In this document: in pieces, positions 31,101-32,877 of the stretch | How positions within the stretch are numbered: position 1 is the first letter of the stretch | Layout of the letters: the number at the start of each line of letters is the position of its first letter | From: Paludibacter sp. | GTDB taxonomy: Bacteria; Bacteroidota; Bacteroidia; Bacteroidales; Paludibacteraceae | Reading direction: 5' to 3' | NCBI GenBank assembly: GCA_017882285.1 | Contig: JADGPS010000025.1 | Location: 1 to 40,454 of the forward strand | Length of the DNA stretch: 40,454 nucleotides | Position numbers and translations under genes: made by a program | Notes under the pieces: model-generated | The model's input: the letters and a program-made list of their open reading frames with translations, nothing else | The model's database searches: none | Told to the model about the DNA's origin: nothing

Positions 31101-32324
31101 ATGATTTCCAAAAAGATACAATTAAATATTAAAGCAGAGTCTTTAAATATCAGTATCAATTTGCCGGCTTCCAAAAGTATCAGCAATCGTGCGTTGATTT
31201 TGAATGCATTGGCTTATAGTCCATACGACATTCAGAATCTGTCGGATTGCGACGATACGCAGGTAACTATGAAAGCGTTGGATTCAAACGATAGAACTTT
31301 TGATATTGGAGCTGCCGGCACATCCATGCGTTTTCTTACAGCATTTTTGTCGAAAACGGTAGGCGAATGGGTTATTACCGGAAGTGAACGCATGAAACAA
31401 CGCCCGGTAAAGTTGTTGGTAGATGCACTAAATAGTTTGGGAGCACGGATTGAATACTTAGAAAAAGAAGGATTTCCTCCCTTGAGGATTTTTGGAAGTG
31501 TGCTTAAGGGAGGTGAAATTCGGGTGAATGGTGGTGTGAGCAGTCAGTATATTTCAGCATTGATGATGATTGCACCATTTATGCAAAATGGATTGAAAAT
31601 CATACTTGAAGGCAATGTTATTTCTGTTCCGTACATCCGCATGACCATTAGCATGATGAAAGAATATTGTGTGAAAGTGAATTTTGAAAATAACGTTATT
31701 GAAATTGAACCGCAAACTTATCAACCAATCAAATACAAAGTAGAATCGGATTGGTCGGCTGCTTCCTATTGGTATGAAATTTTATCAATCGCCGGAAAAG
31801 GTCAGATTTTCCTAAGCGGATTAAATCAAAACAGTTATCAGGGCGACAGCAAAGTGGCTGAACTTTTTATGCAATTGGGCGTAAAAACCGAATATCAAAA
31901 AGAAGGTGTTTTGCTTACTTCAACAGGAAATTATACCGGGAAATTTGAATATGATTTTGTAAATCAACCGGATCTGGCACAGACTTTTGCCGTAACTTGC
32001 TGTTTGAAAAATATTCCTTTTCATTTTAACGGAGTTGAAAGTCTGAAAATTAAAGAAACGAACCGCATAGCGGCTCTAACAAACGAACTTCATAAACTTG
32101 GTTACATTCTCAATGAACCCGTCGAAGGTCAGTTGGCATGGAATGGTGAACGTTGCGAACCAGCTAAAGAAATAAGCATTGCCACTTACGAAGACCATCG
32201 TATGGCAATGGCATTTGCCCCGACAGCAATGGTTACACCGATAACTATTGAACATCCCGAAGTGGTGAGCAAATCATATCCAAACTTTTGGGAAGACTTA
32301 GAACAGTTAACCCCTAGCCCCTAA
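31101..32324 (+). CDS. aroA: 3-phosphoshikimate 1-carboxyvinyltransferase (EPSP synthase)
   Basis: A 407-residue enzyme that joins phosphoenolpyruvate to shikimate 3-phosphate in the chorismate pathway. PASKSISNRALI gives Lys25, Ser26 and Arg30; DIGAAGTSMRFLTAF (68-82) matches the NAGTAMR loop in a divergent form; GSERMKQRPVKLLVDAL, VSSQYISALMM, the catalytic Asp in PDLAQTFA, KETNRIAAL and YEDHRMAMAFA are present. The PEP-site Gly-Ala-Ala-Gly-Thr-Ser variant is unlike E. coli. The last codons (LTPSP and stop) lie within the left arm of a 23-bp inverted repeat, so the original C-terminus may have been different. Confidence 0.94.
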   Translation: MISKKIQLNIKAESLNISINLPASKSISNRALILNALAYSPYDIQNLSDCDDTQVTMKALDSNDRTFDIGAAGTSMRFLTAFLSKTVGEWVITGSERMKQRPVKLLVDALNSLGARIEYLEKEGFPPLRIFGSVLKGGEIRVNGGVSSQYISALMMIAPFMQNGLKIILEGNVISVPYIRMTISMMKEYCVKVNFENNVIEIEPQTYQPIKYKVESDWSAASYWYEILSIAGKGQIFLSGLNQNSYQGDSKVAELFMQLGVKTEYQKEGVLLTSTGNYTGKFEYDFVNQPDLAQTFAVTCCLKNIPFHFNGVESLKIKETNRIAALTNELHKLGYILNEPVEGQLAWNGERCEPAKEISIATYEDHRMAMAFAPTAMVTPITIEHPEVVSKSYPNFWEDLEQLTPSP

Positions 32325-32394
32325 AGGGGAACTGGAATAGCACGGTCAATTATCAAACAATTGTTGCTTAATTCCCCTTTAGGGGTTGGGGGTT
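32309..32394. repeat. Inverted pair of a 23-nt CCCCTAAAGGGG element between convergent genes
   Basis: The arm at 32309-32331 is complementary to 32372-32394 in 21 of 23 positions. In plus-strand RNA the other two become G-U pairs, giving an unbroken 23-bp stem with a 40-nt loop. Each arm also contains the palindrome CCCCTAAAGGGG. The aroA stop lies in the left arm. The stop of the CxxCxxCC gene lies two bases inside the right arm, whose codons form its last eight residues. Confidence 0.9.
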
Positions 32395-32877
32395 CATTGT
32401 TATTTCTTGCATCACTTCATACACAATCGGGCAGGTATATGCATTTTTAATCGATAGATTATAAATCTGATAAAAGCGTTTTCGGTCGGTGTGTGGATAT
32501 TCACGACAGGCTTTCGGTCGGGATTCGTAAATGGCACAATAATTATCTGAACCCAGAAAAGGGCACGGCATCGATTGAAAAACTAAATCGCCATCTTCAT
32601 CAATCATTAAATATTTAGAAATAATATCAGATGCTTTCATTCGAAGCGCTTTTGCAATTCGTTCTACATCTTTATCGGTAGTGCGAGGTCCTAATGAGCG
32701 GCAACAATTGCCACAGCTTAAACAATCAGTTCGTTCTGAAATTTTATCGTGCAACGCATGAACTTGTAAGTCCATTTCCGCCAGTTTTTTCTTGTTCTTT
32801 GCTAAAAAACGTTTCCAGTCAGGTTCTGATTTTGTTGCTAAAATTGGCAATAATTTATAATCTAATTGTTTGTTCAT
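32368..32877 (-). CDS. YkgJ-type CxxCxxCC zinc/iron-chelating protein
   Basis: A 169-residue cytosolic protein of the YkgJ family, with the metal-binding cluster CLSCGNCC (Cys52, 55, 58, 59), followed by CPFLGSDNYCAIYESRPKACREYPH and a final CPIVYEV. These eight or so cysteines are expected to bind zinc or an iron-sulfur cluster; no reaction is established. The C-terminal NPQPLKGN is encoded by the arm of an intergenic repeat and is probably not part of the original protein. It is convergent with aroA and divergent from the serine palmitoyltransferase gene. Confidence 0.85.
   Translation of the reverse strand: MNKQLDYKLLPILATKSEPDWKRFLAKNKKKLAEMDLQVHALHDKISERTDCLSCGNCCRSLGPRTTDKDVERIAKALRMKASDIISKYLMIDEDGDLVFQSMPCPFLGSDNYCAIYESRPKACREYPHTDRKRFYQIYNLSIKNAYTCPIVYEVMQEITMNPQPLKGN

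Follow-up and report, generated by a model that had tools for sequence, protein, structure and literature searches.

The stretch of DNA analysed here (the window) comprises 40,454 nt of contig JADGPS010000025.1 from a Paludibacter sp. genome, in which two genes with facing 3' ends are separated by a short gap. On the plus strand, positions 31101–32324 form an open reading frame for the EPSP synthase AroA (Pfam PF00275 EPSP_synthase, E = 1e-81), and on the minus strand positions 32368–32877 encode a YkgJ-like CxxCxxCC protein (PF03692, E = 1.5e-15). Two inverted arms of 23 nt each, differing at two positions, lie at 32309–32331 and 32372–32394 around a spacer of 40 nt (32332–32371); they were the only arm matches in the window at up to three mismatches, and none of 100 shuffles reached two. 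The left arm, read on the plus strand, encodes T-P-S-P of AroA (32310–32321) and its stop codon (32322–32324), and the right arm, read on the minus strand, encodes N-P-Q-P-L-K-G-N (32394 down to 32371), the final eight residues of the CxxCxxCC protein, whose stop codon (32370–32368) falls in the spacer, one base beyond the inner end of the arm. Coordinates and translation thus bear out the original prediction that one 23-nt inverted repeat between the two genes supplies the C-termini of both.

The arms proved to be units of a large family. At up to two mismatches, 142 copies (70 + 72) were counted in this genome, while a reversed-pattern control gave none; the 23-mer is therefore not unique, and its proposed nature as a mobile or spreading repeat agrees with this high copy number and with the occurrence of the family across relatives. 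DNA around 100 of the 142 places contained 128 units in 71 clusters, and their profile gave a consensus near GACCCCTAACCCCTAAAGGGGAA of about 23 nt with the core CCCCTAAAGGGG. Among these 128 units, the exact left 23-mer, a TAG variant, occurs five times, and the exact right one, a CAA variant, once. Two units formed the cluster in 46 of 71 cases, with 21 single and four larger clusters, and all 46 two-unit clusters, like the aroA doublet, point their CCCC heads outward. Counted over all neighbours up to 300 nt apart, 51 were head-out, five on the same strand and one tail-out, this last case falling between two pairs. A strict doublet pattern searched over the genome contigs returned no stretch.

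All 17 genomes of the same genus that were searched carry the unit, in 2 to 266 copies each, and so do three of 12 genomes of the same order; at up to one mismatch it was present in 14 of 395 genomes of the phylum, its own included. An exact 21-mer was found in at least 113 stretches, and the 80 titles among the matches listed all bore Bacteroidota names, 33 of them Paludibacter. At these 80 named loci, a head-out partner within 160 nt was seen for 80 of 119 seeds, a tail-out partner for none and a same-strand neighbour alone for two, with 37 seeds having no neighbour. A literature search by terms and by core sequence revealed no description of the family; the core matched only an unrelated E. 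coli paper and its complement none.

The relation of the units to gene ends is not confined to aroA. According to a simple ORF caller, whose start calls are less certain than its stops, 67 gene 3' ends are directed at a cluster; 56 of these ends meet a unit head and 11 a unit tail. Among the 56 head-facing ends, 31 stops overlap the unit, a further 18 lie 0 to 10 nt before it and seven are further away, so that 49 overlap it or fall within 10 nt. Of the overlapping stops, 17 have in common with the unit only its initial one or two bases, which are weakly conserved, 11 are placed at base 16 and three belong to frames running through. Fourteen genes take residues from a unit, and in 11 of them these residues are TPNP, APNP or TPSP. 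The reading frames of the 49 near stops are unevenly used (26, 16 and 7; p = 0.004). No gene was seen to stop at base 9 of the unit, despite the stop that the consensus has there in that frame.

Gene starts show a similar, less frequent contact: 62 starts face a unit head, and 11 of them lie 0 to 2 nt from the unit. In three related genomes (G016, G002 and G014; loci L171, L177 and L178, at about locus position 1500), a CAT-like gene lacks its usual ATG, and its frame leads from the doublet spacer through the unit (SPLGVGG or SPFGAGG in translation) and joins the conserved start, KHEID or KHAID. As these frames begin in the spacer, a repeat of this REP-like kind can, judged from the reading frames, create protein beginnings as well as ends.

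Occupied and empty junctions were compared in related genomes. Between the genes for a flavin reductase and the CAT-like protein, seven of 14 genomes carry a doublet (the present one, G007, G016, G004, G005, G002 and G014), four have none (G015, G424, G017 and G001) and three have other DNA (G425, G009 and G013). Between rmlA and rmlC, the doublet is found in three of 16 genomes (the present one, G016 and G424) and is missing in eight (G001, G002, G003, G006, G011, G014, G015 and G017), three show GGTTAATTGG-like arrays (G007, G005 and, more weakly, G013), and the 16 include two that could not be classified (G010 and G004). At both junctions relatives have either both arms or neither. TAACTGA-like and GGTTAATTGG-like arrays were also observed at the same gene junctions as doublets in sister species (L037 in G015, L040 in G007, L154 in G005 and L176 in G009).

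The aroA/ykgJ gap itself differs from one relative to the next. Genome G009 has no unit there, and its AroA and YkgJ end in FWKDFEKVVQ and EVLEEIIKL, respectively; in G015 and G007, TAACTGA-like arrays supply other tails, G012 holds a different palindromic repeat, and G005 contains several units of the REP-like family, with YkgJ ending on NP and a stop in one of them. Judged by eye, as automatic alignment of the gaps was poor, a near copy of our right flank CATTGTTATTTCTT stands directly behind the array in G015. None of the relatives' tails compared ends in TPSP (AroA) or NPQPLKGN (YkgJ), that is, no orthologue was found to share these residues. This result, together with the presence or absence of whole doublets at the two other junctions, supports the claim that a spreading repeat gave both genes their present ends. 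Across the sequences compared, unrelated repeats have repeatedly entered the gap, and the C-terminal residues of both proteins have drifted along.

The copy number is high, the pairing is fixed head-out, stops and starts lie flush with units, and both arms are present or absent together at two junctions. On this basis, we consider it likely that the element represents a REPIN-like doublet, non-coding and dispersed in many copies, that consists of two inverted units of about 23 nt with their heads outward around a variable spacer. The doublet would have entered the short gap between aroA and ykgJ as one unit. Read from the head, two of the three frames of the consensus unit contain a stop, against a single frame in the CAA variant; with stops in most frames, a gene running into a unit would usually end within a few codons. 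AroA would have gained TPSP and its stop from the left unit in this way, and the CxxCxxCC gene would have met the CAA variant, read through it and reached its stop codon in the spacer. The two mRNAs would then end in a long hairpin, which may have a mild effect on 3' ends or on ribosome exit, as has been suggested for REPs. E. coli REPs located within 15 nt of a stop codon were reported to stall ribosomes (PMC12306157). The re-ending of proteins itself is most likely a tolerated by-product.

A different role was suggested by the original prediction, namely selection on the plus-strand RNA, perhaps as a terminator or stability element of the aroA mRNA. In the corresponding rival explanation, the hairpin would serve aroA or both genes, and compensating G-U changes would preserve an unbroken stem in the plus transcript. 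A long hairpin is indeed predicted on both strands, stronger on the plus strand (-51.6 kcal/mol, z = -7.6) than on the minus strand (-44.3 kcal/mol, z = -5.9), where it is interrupted; the stem was correctly described as uninterrupted only in plus-strand RNA, both arm differences forming G-U pairs there and none on the other strand. Selection on the plus transcript was not supported when the 51 doublets were examined, as no sense-strand G-U bias emerged: in doublets between tandem genes, transition-type differences of the arms gave G-U pairs 18 times on the sense and 12 times on the antisense strand (p = 0.36), and stems whose closure on one strand depends on G-U pairs alone were sense in six cases, antisense in six and mixed in two. 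Where two transition-type differences occur, both fall on one strand in half of the cases.

As to termination, the 15 bases that follow the right arm on the plus strand include nine T, and a consensus scan placed two terminator-like sites on this arm on the same strand (six in the region; shuffled sequences gave 2.0 on average), which leaves room for a putative weak terminator of aroA. A strong or dedicated terminator is unlikely as the general role of the family, since convergent gaps are not enriched (three of 67 classified clusters against seven of the 35 junctions between ORFs in the window, p = 0.03) and junctions between tandem genes prevail (59 of 67). In the 40 two-unit doublets between tandem genes, DNA outside the element has a median of 9.5 nt, and a strong terminator there would leave the following gene cut off. 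Support for a dedicated terminator is weak at best; in its favor at this place are the T-rich stretch and the terminator-like sites. A search of Rfam 15 over positions 32100–32600 gave no match above threshold (MIR9486 with 42.9 of 100 bits, mir-BART17 with 25.1 of 70, Fluoride with 11.2 of 34). Taken as an explanation of the element, a selected RNA structure seems to us improbable.

Somewhat less probable still is the idea that single units insert one by one near gene ends in a fixed orientation, a doublet then being two independent insertions. The free combination of unit types between the arms would agree with it, as would the 21 of 71 clusters that are single: the arms of a doublet differ at 1.67 positions on average against 1.81 for shuffled arms (p = 0.08) and are hardly more alike. 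Spacers, too, are mostly dissimilar from doublet to doublet, and neither they nor the likeness of the arms lends direct support to a putative copying of whole doublets. Against independent insertion stand the 46 of 71 clusters with exactly two units, all head-out even between tandem genes, and the junctions of relatives with both arms or none.

With respect to mobility, movement of the REPIN-like doublet by a single-strand (HUH, Y1) transposase may be envisaged by analogy. Five genes of the genome match Y1_Tnp, four of them above the curated cut-off. Altogether 58 of 106 Y1 loci were inspected, the five own ones and 53 of 101 in relatives, and in none of these 58 was a Y1 gene framed by the unit on both sides (a REPtron); a unit was present at four of the 53 relatives' loci (L123, L190, L198 and L202). 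Three own loci (C11, C61 and C109) have other repeats alongside, and C109 is also adjoined by a C-rich variant doublet of the REP-like family. The Y1 gene at C11, alone among the own ones in having a YIHQNP motif, is bordered by a different palindrome. Over 18 genomes, copy number correlates with the number of Y1 genes (rho = 0.72), which says little, as both follow genome size (0.78 and 0.82). Another of the own Y1 genes, IS200-like and with one in-frame TAG (L114, C142:35995-36477), adjoins ATCCCCTACGGGGAA-like repeats, and a Y1_Tnp match at L003 (C10:74840-75100) lies within a 1336-aa open frame, which on inspection by eye resembles a large methylase and includes a repetitive stretch of peptide.

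A further rival, a DDE-transposon MITE bounded by terminal inverted repeats and target duplications, could draw on the inverted ends around a variable middle and on one doublet with a 9-nt direct end repeat. It is very improbable, as flank similarity over 51 doublets was as in shuffled flanks (1.94 against 1.78, with a fraction of 0.22 at least as high) and target-site duplication was not found, with one exception at C117. This exception, the doublet at C117:15973-16057 (L090) with the 9-nt direct repeat ATGAAAAGA at both ends, stands alone as a strong candidate target duplication, and it is not predicted by a Y1 mechanism. The general lack of target duplication fits a single-strand mechanism and is no proof of it.

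Among known systems, the closest counterparts are the REPINs of Pseudomonas fluorescens SBW25, which are presented in PMC3116915 as inverted REP doublets forming hairpins, with 93% of 430 doublets inverted and singles seen as remnants. The present family resembles these in being high-copy, short and palindromic, in its position at gene junctions and mostly outside genes, and in the prevalence of inverted doublets with a variable spacer. It differs from them in sequence, in the lack of a linked RAYT in the 58 inspected Y1 loci and in arms that are not clearly more alike than shuffled ones. GTAG REPs often supply a stop codon and some REPs lie within ORFs, as stated in PMC3733652; GTAG and CGTC REPs likewise form dimers with units facing each other, near or overlapping genes, but neither end is seen here, a GT[AG]G or CGTC foot being absent at either end of the profile of 128 units. 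In the same phylum, the repeats of Bacteroidetes subclass 2.6 RAYTs are portrayed in PMC6006769 as atypical, without GT[AG]G and with copies elsewhere in the genome, features shared by our family, while the own YIHQNP gene at C11 is flanked by a different palindrome. The TAACTGA direct repeats described in PMC4679880 are also intergenic and overlap gene ends, and similar arrays occupy the aroA/ykgJ gap in G015 and G007, but those are tandem direct heptamers, whereas the present family is an inverted doublet.

The absent foot, the absence of a framed Y1 gene from the 58 inspected loci, the low likeness of the arms, the dissimilar spacers, the 21 clusters of a single unit and the 9-nt direct repeat of one doublet all count against the REPIN-like doublet that we favor. 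A bolder version of it, an orphan REPIN-like family of the Bacteroidota that depends for its movement on an enzyme distinct from a linked RAYT, prefers tight junctions such as stop/start overlaps of the ATGA kind, rewrites the last residues upstream and the first residues downstream, and provides starts from its own spacer, is rather unlikely as a whole. The family behaves as a REPIN would, but as it has no GT[AG]G foot and showed no linked RAYT in the inspected loci, both defining features of the GTAG type, it is filed as REP-like and is not a proven REPIN; it clearly exemplifies a type of genome repeat already known and is not new in principle.

What has been uncovered is a REP-like family with a mover still to be sought, and an example of a small spreading repeat that edits protein ends across a genome, stops and starts alike. 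For annotators, this means that TPNP, APNP and TPSP tails in these genomes are derived from the repeat and uninformative about the enzyme that carries them.
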